DNA of 21,418 bases from a virus, in the IMG/VR virus record IMGVR_UViG_3300045996_000551, positions 1 through 21,418 of that record. One strand, given 5' to 3'. The notes under the pieces were generated by a model. It was not told where the DNA came from. It did not search any database and worked only from the letters and a program-made list of their open reading frames with translations. Each line of letters starts with the position of its first letter. Position 1 is the first letter of the stretch. The translations under genes and the position numbers were made by a program. This document shows positions 34 through 20,760 of the stretch, piece after piece.

Positions 34-459
34 TCAGCCCCCGGCCAGCCGAGGACCGTCGCCCGGATCCGCCGTGCGCACACCGACCTGCGTGCCGAAC
101 CGCTGTGCCAGCTGCCGGTAGTCGCCGATGTTCCGCGGGATCACGGTGATCCCGAGCGCGGCGAGCCCGGCCAGCACGACCTCGTACACCTCGGCCATCG
201 TCAGGCCGCCGTCGATCACCACTGTCAGCACGGCCATGCCCGCGACCAGAAACGTGACCACAGACTTGGCGTAGCCGCCGATGCCGGCCGGCAGGTTCGG
301 CACCACCGCGGTCCCGACCGCCGAGACACCGATCCCCGTGATGACCGTCCACTCTCGAGGGGAGATCACGTTGTCGGTCAGTGCGGCGACCGCCGCGGTC
401 AGCACGGCGACGAGCACCACACCGGCCGCCTTCTTGTACTTCCTGATCAGCTCGAGCAT
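34..459 (-). CDS. Putative holin (four hydrophobic segments)
   Basis: This 141-residue protein has four hydrophobic stretches, at about residues 11-28, 37-54, 65-83 and 91-108, after a short basic N-terminus (RKYKK). The soluble tail carries R and D residues. Size, topology and a position two genes after the endolysin fit a phage holin, which forms holes in the cytoplasmic membrane so that the endolysin can reach the cell wall. The two halves look alike: a 'SPREW' segment followed by a helix ending 'AVVPN', and a 'TMAEV' segment followed by a helix ending 'TVIPRN', suggesting an internal duplication. The ATG has AGAGGA about seven bases upstream, and the start lies three bases after the stop of the preceding small gene. 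Family membership is inferred from features and context; another small phage membrane protein is the alternative. Confidence 0.75.
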   Translation of the reverse strand: MLELIRKYKKAAGVVLVAVLTAAVAALTDNVISPREWTVITGIGVSAVGTAVVPNLPAGIGGYAKSVVTFLVAGMAVLTVVIDGGLTMAEVYEVVLAGLAALGITVIPRNIGDYRQLAQRFGTQVGVRTADPGDGPRLAGG

Positions 460-462
460 GGG

Positions 463-690
463 TCAGTCCTCTTCGGTGAAGGTCAGGGTGTAGTGCTTGC
501 CGGCCTCGAACTGCTCGGCCACCTCGGGCTTCACGGTCATGGTCAAGCTGAGCGCGGGTGTGAACCGGGCCCATTCCTGGTTGCGGCCGTCGTTGTAGTC
601 CGGCACGAACGTCAGCTGGACCTGTTCGTTCTCGGTCCCTTCAGACTGGACGTTCTTGGCCTGGCACGTGATCTTCGCGGTGGTGCTCAT
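463..690 (-). CDS. Small beta-rich phage protein of unknown function
   Basis: This 75-residue protein has alternating polar and hydrophobic residues through most of its length (for example 'KITCQAKNV', 'VQLTFVPDY', 'LSLTMTVKP', 'HYTLTFTEED'), so a single small beta sandwich or barrel is likely. It has no signal peptide, no membrane segment and one cysteine. Its ATG overlaps the stop of the endolysin gene by four bases (ATGA), and the holin gene follows after three bases, so it is translationally coupled within the lysis block. I do not recognise a named family. Its conserved-looking composition and tight coupling argue that it is a real gene, but its role in lysis or in the particle is unknown. 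Confidence 0.7.
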   Translation of the reverse strand: MSTTAKITCQAKNVQSEGTENEQVQLTFVPDYNDGRNQEWARFTPALSLTMTVKPEVAEQFEAGKHYTLTFTEED

Positions 691-1073
691 CCGTCGGTCC
701 CTTCGGTGGTGGGGTTGGCCAGCCGGTCCACGATCGCGTCCACGATCGCTTCGGCCTGGTCGGTGTTGTCCTCGCCGAGCGCCGCCAGAACGGCGGCCAT
801 GATCAGCGGCCGCTGGACGACGTCGATCGCCGTGGCGATCTCCTCGGCGGACGGGGTGTGCTCGGCGACCGCTCGGTCGATCAACTCGGCGAGCTGCGCC
901 GGGGTGATGTCCTTGTCGGCGGAGATCGCCGCGAGGATCGCCGCGTCGCGGGCCGCAGCCTTCTCGACCGCGCTGTCGAAGTTCGCCACCACCGCGGCGA
1001 GTGACGTCTGGCCACCCAGCACGGAGCCCTGGCGGGCGACCTTCGCGTACAGAATGTCGGCAGCGGTGGGCAT
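687..1073 (-). CDS. Possible nested CDS: C-terminal endolysin subunit from internal start
   Basis: In frame with the endolysin, the codon for M157 is an ATG preceded by AGGAGG with a five-base spacer. This is one of the best ribosome binding sites in the window. Starting there would give a 128-residue, mostly helical protein beginning MPTAADILYAKVA. That is the usual look of a free-standing phage protein N-terminus, and it comes directly after the end of the peptidase domain. Two readings are possible. One is a fused gene that still makes the second protein separately. The other is an endolysin that assembles from full-length chains and separately translated C-terminal chains, as is known for some phage endolysins. 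The purine-rich stretch also encodes Q-E-D-D, so coincidence cannot be excluded. Confidence 0.5.
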   Translation of the reverse strand: MPTAADILYAKVARQGSVLGGQTSLAAVVANFDSAVEKAAARDAAILAAISADKDITPAQLAELIDRAVAEHTPSAEEIATAIDVVQRPLIMAAVLAALGEDNTDQAEAIVDAIVDRLANPTTEGTDG

Positions 1074-1541
1074 GTCGTCCTCCTGGGACAGTCGGGCGGC
1101 TACGCGCGCAACAGCGGCGTGGCCGGCGTTGATCTCGAAATGCATCTCGTCGGGCCGGCCCTGGTAATCGCCGCCCCAGCGCACGACGTGTTCGACCTCG
1201 GCGAGGATCTGGCGGATCTCGGCCGCCTGGCGAGCGGTGAACGTGCCGCGGACGCCGAGCGGGTGCCGGGTGGCGTTCCCGTCCACCGCCGTGGCGCTCG
1301 CGTGGTTGCTCGTCGTCGTGCCGCCCCGGATCGGCCGGGCGGCGTACCCCCAGTCATCCAACTCGCCCCGCGTGCCGTCCAGCTCGAGCGACTCGACCCG
1401 GGCGTGAACCTGAGAGAGCACATGGATCAGCACGTCGCCGGCGGGCCCGTCGGCGACCGTGACCCGCACGTCCGCCGTGCCCGGCACGAGCCGGGACCGT
1501 CGCGGTGGGTCTGTCGGCCATCCGTTCTGCGATGTCGCCAT
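687..1541 (-). CDS. Endolysin with M15-type zinc peptidase domain and helical C-terminus
   Basis: This 284-residue protein has an N-terminal catalytic domain (about residues 20-150) with the signature of the M15 (VanY / L-Ala-D-Glu endopeptidase) family. The visible motifs are 'SNHASATAVDGN' with H80 and D87, and 'DEMHFEIN' with H134, which together are the expected zinc ligands. A 'RWGGDY' segment precedes the last ligand, as is usual. The family cuts peptide cross-links of peptidoglycan. Where related proteins usually have a glycine in the first motif, this one has A83. Residues 157-284 form a separate mostly helical domain with no recognisable cell-wall binding repeats. A strong internal start precedes it (see nested feature 687-1073). 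The ATG at 1541 has GGAGGT four bases upstream, overlapping the previous stop. No signal peptide is seen, so export through the holin is expected. Confidence 0.85.
   Translation of the reverse strand: MATSQNGWPTDPPRRSRLVPGTADVRVTVADGPAGDVLIHVLSQVHARVESLELDGTRGELDDWGYAARPIRGGTTTSNHASATAVDGNATRHPLGVRGTFTARQAAEIRQILAEVEHVVRWGGDYQGRPDEMHFEINAGHAAVARVAARLSQEDDMPTAADILYAKVARQGSVLGGQTSLAAVVANFDSAVEKAAARDAAILAAISADKDITPAQLAELIDRAVAEHTPSAEEIATAIDVVQRPLIMAAVLAALGEDNTDQAEAIVDAIVDRLANPTTEGTDG
1074..1083 (-). promoter_or_regulatory. Internal ribosome binding site within endolysin gene
   Basis: On the minus strand the sequence reads CCAGGAGGACGACATG, with AGGAGG at 1079-1084 and the ATG at 1073-1071. The match to the 16S anti-Shine-Dalgarno sequence is as good as that of the tape measure or tail terminator genes, although it lies inside an open reading frame. 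Confidence 0.55.
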
Positions 1542-1542
1542 G

Positions 1543-2391
1543 TCAACCTCCGAGGATCGGCAGGTCCGGCCCGTCGTCGGGCGGGGTGCTGCTCGTGATG
1601 CACAGGTAGCCGGTCACCGTGCCGCCGTCGGCCGCACGGACCTCGGCTTCACCGAAGCTGCCGCGGCCCTGGCACAACGCGGCCGGAAGGAAATCGGGGT
1701 TGGCCTCGACGAACGCGACGAACGCCATCTGAATGTCGGCCTCGGTCGGCGTGCGCCCGTCGACACCGTCCCTTCCGGGCTCACCCTGGACGCCCTGCTC
1801 GCCCTGCGGACCCCGACACTCAGGCCGCACCGCCGGATCACAGTCCGCGCCCGGTGGACCGGGCGGGATCGGGTTCGTCGCCAGGTAGCCGGCCAACGTC
1901 GCCGACAGCTGCGCGGTCGACGGGCCGGGCGGAGGGTTGGTCGCCATATGCCGCGCGATCGCCGCACCCAGCTCGGCCGCCGTCGGCGACGGATCCGGGA
2001 TCGACGCCAACACCCTCGCCGTCGCCGCCGCCACGATCACGTCCAGGTCCGCGCCCTCGCCGGGCTCCGGAATATCCACGGGCTCCTGACCGCGGCGCTC
2101 CAGTTCGTCGTTTGCTGCCTCGCCCTGCGGCTTGGCCTGTTCGGCCGCGGCCTGCAGGTCGTCGATCTGCGCGCCCTGCCCAAGAACCTGGAAGGCCAGC
2201 CATCCGATCAGCGCCACGATCACCAACGTCACGGCCGCGTTGGCGCCGACAATCTTCGGCCACCACGCCCGGAGTTCGTCGCGTGCTGCTGCCTTCGCGG
2301 TCTCTGGCGCGGTGTCGGCCACCTCGTGCATGGCGTCACCGAGCGCGTCGAGCGCGTGCTGGCCGCGAGTGCGCGGGTCCTCATCGCTCAC
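1543..2391 (-). CDS. Membrane protein with helical repeats and collagen-like segment
   Basis: This 282-residue protein has an N-terminal cytoplasmic-type helical segment (1-45), one clear membrane helix (about 48-70), a probable coiled coil (72-100) and an acidic proline-rich linker. Then come short repeats: helices of about 12 residues ending in 'ATNP' or similar followed by prolines, at about 138-158 and 160-181, with looser copies at 116-134 and 218-236. A collagen-like run of seven G-X-Y triplets lies at 194-214. Cysteines at 184, 192, 240 and 264 are all on the distal side of the membrane helix and could form disulfides. The GTG start overlaps the stop of the upstream gene (GTGA). The position just before the endolysin suggests a role at the envelope during lysis, for example spanning the wall, but this is inference. 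I do not recognise a named family. Confidence 0.8.
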   Translation of the reverse strand: MSDEDPRTRGQHALDALGDAMHEVADTAPETAKAAARDELRAWWPKIVGANAAVTLVIVALIGWLAFQVLGQGAQIDDLQAAAEQAKPQGEAANDELERRGQEPVDIPEPGEGADLDVIVAAATARVLASIPDPSPTAAELGAAIARHMATNPPPGPSTAQLSATLAGYLATNPIPPGPPGADCDPAVRPECRGPQGEQGVQGEPGRDGVDGRTPTEADIQMAFVAFVEANPDFLPAALCQGRGSFGEAEVRAADGGTVTGYLCITSSTPPDDGPDLPILGG

Positions 2392-17620: not shown

Positions 17621-19084
17621 CTACGCCAGACCGACCAGGTCGGCCGGCACCGCAGGCACCAGCTCACCGGCCGGCACGGTTGCCGGCTGCTGGCCGGGTG
17701 CCTGGAACGTCGGGGCAAGCGCGTTCTGCATCGCCTCGGTCGCGGCCTCCGCGCGCAACCGGGACACGCGCTGCGGGGACTCGCCCATGTCCTCGGCGAC
17801 CATTGGCAGCGGCCACCCCATGCTCCGCTTCTTCACACCCATGTCGGCGAGCACCGCGGGGTTGAGGTGCCGGGGGTCCGCCCACCGCACCTCGTGCTGG
17901 GAGAAGTCGGGATCCACGCCGGCGACCATCGCGGCCAGTCCAAGGGCCTCCTCGATGCCTTCACCGCCGTCGGTGTTCAGCTCGCGGACCTTCTCGACGT
18001 GGTTGGCGTCCAGCGCCATCACCGTGTCCGTCGAGACGTTCACCAGATCACCAGGCATGTAGTACGCCGGCGTCGAGGTAAGCACGAACAGGGTGCGGAT
18101 CTCGAACTCGTGCCCGCGGATCAGGTTGGTCAGGTCGGCCGGCTGCAGCTGCCCGAAGCCGCCCTTGTCGTTCTCGTTGACCCACACCCCGGCGCCACCG
18201 CGCGGGAACGGGTTCTCCGCGATCTCCATGCCGGTGATCGGATCGACCGACTTTTTGACCTTCGCGCCGGTCGCGAACGCCTGCGGCTGAGCCATCAGCC
18301 GCTCGACGAACATCCGGTTGAGGACCTGCAGGTTGAAGCGGTCCTGGATGTCGCGGACTTCCCAGAAGTCGGGCTCGGGTTCCTCGCCGAGGTCCGGGAT
18401 GTACTCGAACGGCACGATCGGCGGCCGGTCGAACACCGTCTCCCGGGCGTCGCCGTCCTCTGTCCAGTTCGACGAACCCCACGCCATCGTCCGCGTCGCC
18501 GACCACGTGTCCGTCTTGAACCGGTGGTTCGTCGCCTTGCCGTTGGCCCCCTCAGGGGCGAGGTACAGGCTTGCGCGTCCGACCTCATCGATGTCGTCGA
18601 ACCAGACCTTCAGCGCCGCGCGCACGTCGCCGGTGGCCGGATCCAGCTCCGTGATCACCTCGGTCGGGTGCTCCACCGTGATGAGCGGGCGCCGCTTCGT
18701 ACGGGGGTGTTCGCCGATCATCAGGAACCCGCGGCCGGTCGACTGCACCGAGCGGAACAGCATCTTCTGCTTGGAGTCCCACCGGTTGCGCTGCAACCAG
18801 GACCACGCCCGCGTGTCCTCCTCGCCCTTGGCGTCGGTCACCCCGATGTTCAGCTGCCGGGCCACCGTGGCGCGCACAACCATCTTGCACATGTTCGTGC
18901 GGGCCTTGCGCTGGAACTCCAGCCACGCACGCCGGTCCTCGACCGGCACCTGCGGAAGCAGTTGCTCACCGCGGTAGTACATCCGGTACGCCGCGAGATC
19001 CTTCTGCCGTGCGCGCAGCCGACGGCCGAGGCGAAGCAGCCACCACGCCGGCGACAGCTTGGTATCGGCATCGATCAGCGGCAC
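17621..19084 (-). CDS. Portal protein, SPP1 gp6-like
   Basis: This 487-residue protein forms the dodecameric ring through which DNA enters and leaves the head. Typical features are an N-terminal helix with 'RARQKDLAAYRMYYRGEQLLP', 'FQRKARTNMCKMVVRATVARQLNIGV', a central 'VFDRPPIVPFEYIPDLGEEPEPDFWEVRDIQDRFNLQVLNR', and the clip/crown region with 'FVLTSTPAYYMPGDLVNVS' followed by helices. I chose the GTG at 19084 because GAGGGGAG lies five bases upstream; the in-frame ATG at 19099 has none. The frame stays open much further upstream (to 19894) only as a mirror of the terminase gene. The C-terminal tail is rich in P and A. Gene order (terminase, portal, MuF) is as expected. Confidence 0.92.
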   Translation of the reverse strand: MPLIDADTKLSPAWWLLRLGRRLRARQKDLAAYRMYYRGEQLLPQVPVEDRRAWLEFQRKARTNMCKMVVRATVARQLNIGVTDAKGEEDTRAWSWLQRNRWDSKQKMLFRSVQSTGRGFLMIGEHPRTKRRPLITVEHPTEVITELDPATGDVRAALKVWFDDIDEVGRASLYLAPEGANGKATNHRFKTDTWSATRTMAWGSSNWTEDGDARETVFDRPPIVPFEYIPDLGEEPEPDFWEVRDIQDRFNLQVLNRMFVERLMAQPQAFATGAKVKKSVDPITGMEIAENPFPRGGAGVWVNENDKGGFGQLQPADLTNLIRGHEFEIRTLFVLTSTPAYYMPGDLVNVSTDTVMALDANHVEKVRELNTDGGEGIEEALGLAAMVAGVDPDFSQHEVRWADPRHLNPAVLADMGVKKRSMGWPLPMVAEDMGESPQRVSRLRAEAATEAMQNALAPTFQAPGQQPATVPAGELVPAVPADLVGLA

Positions 19085-19104
19085 GGCAACTCCCCTCATT
19101 GGAC

Positions 19105-20760
19105 TCAGAACGAGTAGGAGCCGGCCTCTTCGAGCGGCTCGGCCAGGCCGGCCGCGATCGCGGCAAGCCGCGCCTGCCACGCCAGGATCGCGGCCACCGC
19201 GGCGTCGATCTTCTTGTCGGACTCCGGATGCGCCTTCGCGATCTGCATCCCGGCGCGGGACATGCGCCGTCGGGCGTTGACCAGGTGCCGTGTCAACGCC
19301 GACGACCCGTCGTGCGTGCACTGCCTCTTCACGATGGCCGTGTGCAGCTCGTCGGTCGCCCGGACGATCTGCGTCGCACTGCCGCCGGTCATCCACCAGT
19401 GGATCGGGTTGTCCCGGGTGGCCTTCACCTTCAGCCGGTCGTGGTACTTGGCCTCCCACGACACCAGCCAGGTCGCCCACTTCGCCGGGTCCCCGAAGAA
19501 CCCGACCACGTTGTAGTCCTTGAAGGTCTGGTGGACCTCGGCGTCCACCTCGATCTCCGGGACCATCCAGTCCCGGCCCTCGGGCCCTGCGGGTTGCTCC
19601 CACACCCGAACCTCGAACAGGTGGCCATCCGACACGCGGCACCCGACCAGCGCGGTGGCATCGGTCACGGCCTCCGAACGCTTCAGCGAACCGTCGAACC
19701 CCAGCGTGATCATCTCGCCCGGCTCGACCCACTTCGCCAGATCTCGACACGCGCCGACCTGCGGTTTGGTCAACCAGCTGTCGGACGCGTGCGTGACCTG
19801 GTTCAGGAAGTCCGAACGCGACTCCTGGACGTCCGAGGTCGGGTCCCAGATCGTGGCGACCAGGTGGTCGAGGTCCGAGTGCCCAGGCGGGCACGGCGGA
19901 TCATGCAGCACGCACCCGTCGGGGTGTGCCGACGAGTCGCCGTACGCGATCCGCAGACCGAGCACGAGCGAATCGCGGTCGACCAGGCTGGTCGTCTCCG
20001 GTGCTTCGCGGTGGTCGTAGTGCAGACCGTCGTCACGCGCCTTACCGGACTGGATCGACTCCCAGAACGCCGCGGAGTGCTCGGCCACGCTCTCCAGACC
20101 GGGGATGAACGCGTTCGGCGACTCGACGAACGATCCGCCGATCTTCGCCGTGTTGTTCTTGATCTTCTGGAACAGGTTCAGTCCACCGTTGGACTTCACC
20201 CACTCCTCGGTCTGGTCCAGGGCCGCGAACACCGGCTTGCCACCCTTGGTGGTGCTCGCCGCGCTGGTGATCGGCTCGATCCGGCCCTTCGGCAGGTTGA
20301 CGAACGTGTCCAGCGGTTCGATGTCGTACTCGTCGAGGACCGGGCCTTCGCGCAGCATCTCCAGCAGCGGGTCCCAGGTGTTCCTGGTCTGCTTCTCGGA
20401 CACGGCGGCGACCTGCACGATGGGCGTGCGGACCAGCGACCACGGCTTGCCGACTGGCTGCCCGTCCGCGTCCCACCCGTCCGGCACAACCGGCCCCAGC
20501 GCCTCCACGGCCATCATCGCGGCCAGCAGTGGCGACTTCCCCCACCCGCGCGGCCGCGAGATCACCCCGCGTCGGCGTCGGCGCTTCCCGGTCCGGGGGT
20601 CCAGCTCGTAGAACCGGAGCAGGAAGTCCTCCTGCTCCAGGTATGGCAAGAACGGTTCGTACTCGATCCGGTCCGGAGCCGCCAGATAGGCCGTGATCCA
20701 GTCGATGACGACGTAGCCGAGCGTCGGAACCTCGCCAGGCTCCGACGGCTTCCACGGCAC
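19105..20760 (-). CDS. Terminase large subunit
   Basis: This 551-residue protein is the packaging motor with an ATPase and a nuclease domain. ATPase: a Walker A-like 'RPRGWGKS' at 69-76, and a Walker B-like 'PVFAALDQTEEW' at 176-187 with D182 and E185/E186. Nuclease: 'MITLGFDGS' (first metal aspartate), 'VVGFFGDPAKW' in the middle, and 'KKIDAAVAAILAW' near the C-terminus (last aspartate), the expected three-part RNase H-like arrangement. The GTG at 20760 is three bases after the small subunit stop with GGGGTGA upstream, so both subunits are co-translated. Whether packaging is by cos or headful cannot be read from this. The long plus-strand frames over this gene are mirrors. Confidence 0.94.
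   Translation of the reverse strand: MPWKPSEPGEVPTLGYVVIDWITAYLAAPDRIEYEPFLPYLEQEDFLLRFYELDPRTGKRRRRRGVISRPRGWGKSPLLAAMMAVEALGPVVPDGWDADGQPVGKPWSLVRTPIVQVAAVSEKQTRNTWDPLLEMLREGPVLDEYDIEPLDTFVNLPKGRIEPITSAASTTKGGKPVFAALDQTEEWVKSNGGLNLFQKIKNNTAKIGGSFVESPNAFIPGLESVAEHSAAFWESIQSGKARDDGLHYDHREAPETTSLVDRDSLVLGLRIAYGDSSAHPDGCVLHDPPCPPGHSDLDHLVATIWDPTSDVQESRSDFLNQVTHASDSWLTKPQVGACRDLAKWVEPGEMITLGFDGSLKRSEAVTDATALVGCRVSDGHLFEVRVWEQPAGPEGRDWMVPEIEVDAEVHQTFKDYNVVGFFGDPAKWATWLVSWEAKYHDRLKVKATRDNPIHWWMTGGSATQIVRATDELHTAIVKRQCTHDGSSALTRHLVNARRRMSRAGMQIAKAHPESDKKIDAAVAAILAWQARLAAIAAGLAEPLEEAGSYSF

Follow-up and report, generated by a model that had tools for sequence, protein, structure and literature searches.

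An in-frame internal start site between the M15 peptidase domain and the predicted helical tail of a phage endolysin

The endolysin gene and its surroundings

The window, by which we mean the whole stretch of 21,418 nucleotides of viral record IMGVR_UViG_3300045996_000551 that was analysed, carries an endolysin gene on its minus strand (687..1541), with the start codon ATG at 1541-1539 and the stop codon TGA at 689-687. The 284-residue product of 29.8 kDa matches Peptidase_M15_4 (PF13539, E=2.3e-10) over residues 73-137 and the endolysin family phrog_1512 (E=9.9e-34). Its start codon is preceded by a Shine-Dalgarno (SD) sequence GGAGG (1547..1551, minus strand; SD energy -9.9) and the spacer TTGAC. 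The catalytic domain, of the L-Ala-D-Glu / D-Ala-D-Ala type, comprises residues 1-156 (1074..1541, minus strand) and has the motifs SNHASATAVD and DEMHFEI. The M15 zinc ligands are present as HxxxxxxD plus the C-terminal histidine of DEMHFE, and H80, D87 and H134 are invariant in alignments.

A second ribosome binding site lies within the gene. The SD sequence AGGAGG (1079..1084, minus strand; energy -10.3) is embedded in Gln-Glu codons and is followed by the five-nucleotide spacer ACGAC (1074..1078) and by an in-frame ATG, Met157 (1071..1073), a joint position that is conserved in relatives. The remaining 128 residues (687..1073, minus strand) constitute the C-terminal tail and the predicted short product, of 13.0 kDa, pI 4.1 and five predicted helices. 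This agrees with an earlier note on this DNA, which had described an AGGAGG with a five-base spacer and an in-frame ATG in a feature at 687-1084; the coordinates were correct, and the strand, absent from that note, is the minus strand, with the site reading from 1084 to 1071. The note had also placed the internal ATG at the end of the M15 domain. In the AlphaFold2 model residues 1-156 form an M15 fold with pLDDT mostly >90 and confidence falls sharply from residue 157, so the internal start coincides exactly with the domain edge.

The internal site has the same geometry as the start of the gene itself (AGGAGG-ACGAC-ATG and GGAGG-TTGAC-ATG) and is as strong (-10.3 vs -9.9). The called genes of the window contain 303 internal in-frame start codons, of which Met157 has the second best SD energy and the best of any ATG. 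The strongest, -11.0, belongs to a GTG at 18806 (minus strand) inside a portal-like ORF (17621-19894), where chance is a possible explanation. AGGAGG followed by ATG at a spacing of 3 to 10 nucleotides occurs four times in the window, where 0.76 occurrences are expected, and the other three sites coincide by position with ORF starts. Synonymous-codon shuffling of the endolysin gene was uninformative as evidence for selection and did not reject chance: AGGAGG was retained in 83% of shuffles, because Gln-Glu-Asp-Asp spells AGGAGG in a GC-rich codon set. The site in a single gene therefore proves nothing, and the test must be comparative.

The stop codon of the endolysin gene overlaps the ATG of a downstream gene for 75 residues (463..690, minus strand; phrog_6978, E=2.9e-11), the product of which aligns with the C-terminal quarter of phrog_6978. 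The ATGA overlap at 687-690 suggests that the two genes may be translationally coupled. A small membrane protein (34..459, minus strand) is a candidate holin of the lysis cassette, with a weak match to the holin/anti-holin family phrog_126 (E=0.008) and a match to phrog_17055 (unknown, E=7.6e-11). Directly upstream of the endolysin gene lies a gene for a 282-residue protein (1543-2391, minus strand) that probably has an N-terminal transmembrane helix and also contains a short, collagen-like run of Gly-X-Y, itself preceded by a gene for a 95-residue, likely membrane or coiled-coil protein (2388-2675). M15 proteins 60-72% identical to that of the window are found in genomes of Pseudonocardiaceae (L201-L211; Actinophytocola, Actinokineospora, Amycolatopsis and Labedaea), many of them tailless and ending right after the domain. 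Their occurrence in these genomes suggests that the host of the phage may belong to the Pseudonocardiaceae.

The joint in M15 homologues and other lysins

M15 homologues were chosen by protein from viral contigs and GTDB genomes, in a non-redundant set with closed tails. Homology among them mostly ends at residues 151-156, at the internal start, and the tails beyond form a mosaic. A joint site was counted as strong when an SD sequence and start of -8 kcal/mol or below lay 15-34 residues past HFEI. Such a site was present in 20 of 35 homologues with non-PGBD tails vs 0 of 43 with PG_binding_1 tails (Fisher p=1.6e-9), PGBD tails being assigned by motif pattern rather than by a full profile scan. 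Although the catalytic domains of the PG_binding_1-tailed endolysins (e.g. L002, L005, L008-L010) are 70-80% identical, these enzymes differ from the window endolysin in that their tails have recognisable wall-binding repeats and their joint lacks an internal start. No PG_binding_1 repeat was matched by Pfam in residues 157-284, which places the window endolysin outside that class. About 40% of the non-PGBD M15 tails have no strong site at the -8 threshold, and some of these have a weaker one (L007, L069, L419, L424, L444).

Counted per codon in the first batch of homologues, strong sites came to 18/532 at the joint, against 2/2613 in the remainder of the tails and 2/3498 in the catalytic domains, with a joint zone that was fixed after this batch had been seen. 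A later batch contained eight non-PGBD tails, three with a strong site (L410, L417, L430) and three with a weaker SD-like run before the start (L419, L424, L444). An SD core followed by an in-frame start at the proper spacing was found for 21 of 27 cores at the joint vs 2 of 38 elsewhere in the same genes (p=9e-10). These counts bear on the idea that the SD-like run serves only as a translational pause, during which the catalytic domain folds before the tail is made. The run does stand exactly at the domain boundary, as a pause would require, but a pause needs no start codon, and the two-domain PGBD lysins do without such a run. We regard a pause alone as scarcely credible and reject it on the difference between 21/27 and 2/38.

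A blind scan for the DNA motif AGGAGGACGACATGCC across all viral contigs gave at least 119 stretches. Of these, 23 had fewer than 60 upstream ORF codons and were mostly ordinary gene starts, and 96 lay in frame within longer ORFs, mostly endolysins, in which the site follows the catalytic domain and precedes a tail of about 100 residues. Pfam domains over the 96 listed internal sites were Amidase_2 (42), GH25 (7), M23 (5), VanY (4), CHAP (2), Rv2525c-like GH (2) and M15_4 (1), and PHROG endolysin families matched widely among the listed ORFs. Both the scan and the tail sets include near-duplicates from related metagenomes, which are not independent events.

Matches outside the lysins include a Mu-like I protease (L185:2897-3955, minus strand) and S78 head proteases (L096:7489-9648, minus strand; L132:3326-4594, plus strand), in all of which AGGAGGACGACATGCC is in frame where nested scaffold starts are expected. 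In phage head genes such as Mu I/Z and lambda C/Nu3, an internal start in the same frame lies behind the catalytic part and gives rise to a helper, the scaffold. Since in-frame nested scaffold genes are established in the head-protease class, these matches are a useful positive control. A phage protein family of about 370 residues (phrog_760, unknown; L313:5073-6188, minus strand, L353, L378, L385 and relatives) has KEDD followed by MPVSDEQFKSLSDEVK, with AAGGA before an in-frame ATG; this may perhaps be another nested gene.

The amino acids at the joint vary around a constant SD and start, and read EDDM, EDPM, GGDV, PEVDV, QEALM, EEDAM, EEDPFM, EEEFM, KERDPM, EENDV or EDDSM. This variation is relevant to a second alternative, in which the acidic EEDD-M is a linker or processing site at the protein level and the SD sequence a by-product of its codons. 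The shuffles lend that idea some support, as QEDD in GC-rich codons yields AGGAGG in 83% of them. However, the SD and start persist with GGDV, PEVDV, QEALM, EEDPFM and EEEFM, and L410 and L004, which have homologous tails on unrelated linkers with no common linker residues, both have an SD and ATG. PGBD-tailed relatives also need a linker, yet are without the site. As a control we scanned for GAAGACGACATGCC, in which GAA replaces GAG so that the peptide EDDMP is the same and the SD is broken at that codon. Among the 120 stretches found, about ten are endolysins, as judged by eye from sequence, and in these an SD core persists, either overlapping the changed codon or lying immediately before it, as in CAGGAGGAAGACGACATG; the weakest retained core is GGAGAAGAC, in L354. 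No SD core was found in three of three unrelated non-lysin proteins checked. Because the SD and start survive both the change of peptide and the GAA control, the linker-only explanation was rejected, and we hold it to be very improbable. On these alignments, conservation at the joint is at the nucleotide level, of the SD rather than of the peptide.

Pairs of related lysins indicate how tails are exchanged at this place. L256 and L260 are a pair of lysins from a single Blastococcus strain, whose DNA is about 98% identical up to and including the ribosome binding site, the ATG and 6 further nucleotides, and then diverges. L128 and L153 join different amidase parts to a tail that is 94% identical, the identity starting at GAGGAGGACGACATG, and L127 and L155 have a common amidase with different tails. 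By these comparisons, phages exchange tails and catalytic domains at the joint, where the ribosome binding site and start remain in place.

Among isolates, the site is present in Streptomyces phage OnionKnight (S. lividans), where PQEDD is followed by MDAGDVW from the start codon on, and in Streptomyces phage Dagobah (S. coelicolor M600), where GQEDDS is followed by MDRHETADAVW. Both of these phages can be propagated on laboratory strains, which opens the claim to direct testing. A strong ATG site at the joint was absent in eight isolates (Urza, LuckySocke, Endor1, BRock, Darolandstone, Galactica, South40 and Treat), in all of which inspection of the sequence points to terminal repeats of the PGBD or LysM type; the joint of Treat has a GTG with SD energy -7.7. 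Taken over relatives with different tails and catalytic domains, the comparisons support selection for an in-frame internal start at the joint, and conservation of the internal ribosome binding site, the lack of which the earlier note had listed among the findings that would refute it, is borne out in relatives with non-PGBD tails.

The tail and its relatives

Structure prediction gave an all-helical tail, with helices at residues 4-18, 25-52, 58-70, 76-99 and 101-119 (mean pLDDT 78, pTM 0.43). The sequence is 24% alanine, and counting alanine, 7/8 and 7/7 of the a/d positions of helices 2 and 4 are hydrophobic in this Ala-rich sequence. Such a pattern would fit association as a bundle or coiled coil. 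The tail gave no convincing match in Pfam, in PHROG, among PDB sequences or by structure, and so does not resemble a recognised wall-binding domain; the earlier description of a tail without recognisable wall-binding repeats holds for both Pfam and PHROG. Foldseek of the tail model against viral models returned nothing below E=3. A PDB sequence-profile search with the tails gave only weak helical-bundle matches, to vinculin (best E 0.04), which were taken as compositional and rejected.

The closest relatives of the tail are the tails of the M15 lysins L260 and L256 (E=3.6e-8), with which it has GEDNxDQAxAIVDA in common. Its links to an actinophage tail family with the motif MPTAxEVAKAV, which accounts for 58 of 114 tails, are weak (L174, 1.9e-4; L184, 4.3e-4). 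The window tail alone had no match in 50,697 phage records or in viral contigs, so that the search for stand-alone homologues of the 128-residue part, which the earlier note had proposed, gave none. Searches of single tails against phage records by tblastn were mostly empty and yielded Dagobah, a relative of OnionKnight. When tail homologues of L098 were selected by protein and not by SD, 52 of 52 were fused and 45 of 52 had a strong SD and start. No stand-alone tail gene was found among these 52 homologues or in the loci that were retrieved, which contain 23,257 ORFs, and the suggestion in the note that a formerly separate gene had been fused was not supported.

The same result weighs on a third alternative, in which the internal ribosome binding site and start are a functionless leftover of the in-frame fusion of a once separate tail gene. 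Such a history would fit with tails being exchanged as units, and with the shared block of L128 and L153, which opens with the ribosome binding site and continues into the tail, as a complete translational unit would. In L256 and L260, however, the tails differ and the ribosome binding site remains attached to the catalytic part. Moreover, a dead ribosome binding site should decay, and this one is kept while the peptide varies, and shifts where GAA appears. Together with the lack of stand-alone tails in the sets searched, these points make a leftover unlikely.

A predicted endolysin of two polypeptides

We consider it likely that the gene encodes a two-polypeptide endolysin, in which a full enzyme and a separately started tail are made and the tails assemble with full-length chains. 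Ribosomes starting at 1541 would produce the complete enzyme, in which the M15 peptidase carries the helical tail, and a second initiation at the internal AGGAGG-N5-ATG (1073) would produce the 13 kDa tail alone. Translation from the internal start is, in our judgement, highly probable given the comparative sequence data. The tail would be a self-associating helical module, with full-length chains complexed with free tails; self-association seems slightly favoured, although the tail model has a pTM of 0.43 and no structural match. The complex might then bind the cell wall, or another cell target, through several tails at once, and assembly with free tails might activate or time it. That multivalent wall targeting is the purpose is a conjecture to which we give a little under an even chance. 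Of the separate C-terminal subunit put forward in the earlier note, the internal start thus stands, as selected at the joint by comparison, and the 13 kDa product and its role as a subunit are our inference.

The principle of internal-start endolysins is already known, with proven precedents (PMC3111421, PMC4777826, PMC9430671, PMC12203907), and internal starts have been predicted in about half of Gram-positive phage endolysins (Pinto et al., PMC9430671). In CTP1L, CD27L, CS74L, Lys170, LysIME-EF1 and LysP7951, as in the window endolysin, one gene has an in-frame internal SD and start between the catalytic and the C-terminal domain, and relatives of CTP1L conserve a GGAGG-type SD like that of the joint site (PMC4777826, PMC9430671). 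The window endolysin has the features of two-polypeptide endolysins, namely an identifiable peptidoglycan hydrolase domain (PF13539; phrog_1512), a strong-SD in-frame start between domains and not inside one, and the same relative position of that start in relatives, the last only in those with non-PGBD tails and in 20/35 at the strict threshold. In these six enzymes the short product is the C-terminal domain only, as predicted here. Theirs is a recognised wall-binding domain, whereas the window tail is predicted to be all-helical with no known binding fold, and the hosts of that group are Firmicutes, whereas the joint-site lysins found here belong to actinobacterial phages and prophages.

In CTP1L, Lys170 and LysP7951, free C-terminal domains associate with the full-length chain, with a gain in activity or avidity (PMC4777826, PMC9430671), and by analogy the short tail may assemble with the full-length enzyme. 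The actinophage endolysin Ms6 LysA (Lysin384/Lysin241) also has a proven in-frame internal start behind a consensus ribosome binding site, comparable to the window site, but there the site precedes the PGRP catalytic domain and the short form is an active enzyme, whereas the short form predicted here has no catalytic domain (PMC3111421). A fourth alternative is that the short product is made and acts alone, as a regulator of lysis timing or a wall decoy, without binding the full-length enzyme. The forms of Ms6 and of LysJavan488 are not shown to interact, and lysis timing in Ms6 needs both (PMC3111421, PMC9430671). On the other side, a short form without a catalytic domain resembles those of CTP1L, Lys170 and LysP7951, each of which assembles into a mixed complex (PMC9430671), and independent action has, we think, a minor but appreciable chance of being correct. 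The short product is probably an oligomerising or targeting subunit, and if Ms6 and phi2638A are a guide, the timing of lysis should be altered when either form is missing (PMC3111421, PMC12203907).

The nested genes Mu I/Z and lambda C/Nu3 follow the same logic as the window endolysin, but in capsid maturation and not in lysis. The papers that we found on endolysin internal starts concern mainly phages of Firmicutes and mycobacteriophages, with short products of familiar domains. Streptomyces lysins of PMC11705968 were N-tagged and have LysM or PG-binding tails, and therefore do not bear on tail-only products. No actinophage or Streptomyces precedent of a tail-only short product was found in the open literature, most subscription journals being outside the search. 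What appears to be new, from the sequence comparisons, is an uncharacterised helical tail as the putative short product, a codon-embedded ribosome binding site ('EDDM') that recurs at the joint in seven hydrolase families, and the exclusion of this site from enzymes with PGBD tails.

More tentatively, actinophages may draw on a pool of exchangeable small helical tails, each carrying a codon-embedded ribosome binding site and start ('EEDD-M') that can be joined to amidase, GH25, M23, VanY, CHAP or M15 domains, with the ribosome binding site as the recombination joint. Lysins of this design would do without peptidoglycan-binding repeats and would rely instead on tails that are always made both fused and free and that self-assemble as subunits for targeting or activation. 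PGBD-tailed lysins lack the site and lysins with other tails have it, and with so clean a separation tail exchange could test what the short form is for. If the two-polypeptide reading is true, the short product would escape notice in N-terminally tagged constructs or be lost on codon optimisation, a point of importance for obtaining active lysins against actinobacteria. Many actinophage lysins annotated as single proteins would then be two-subunit enzymes, and a tail class of no known function would be their second subunit.
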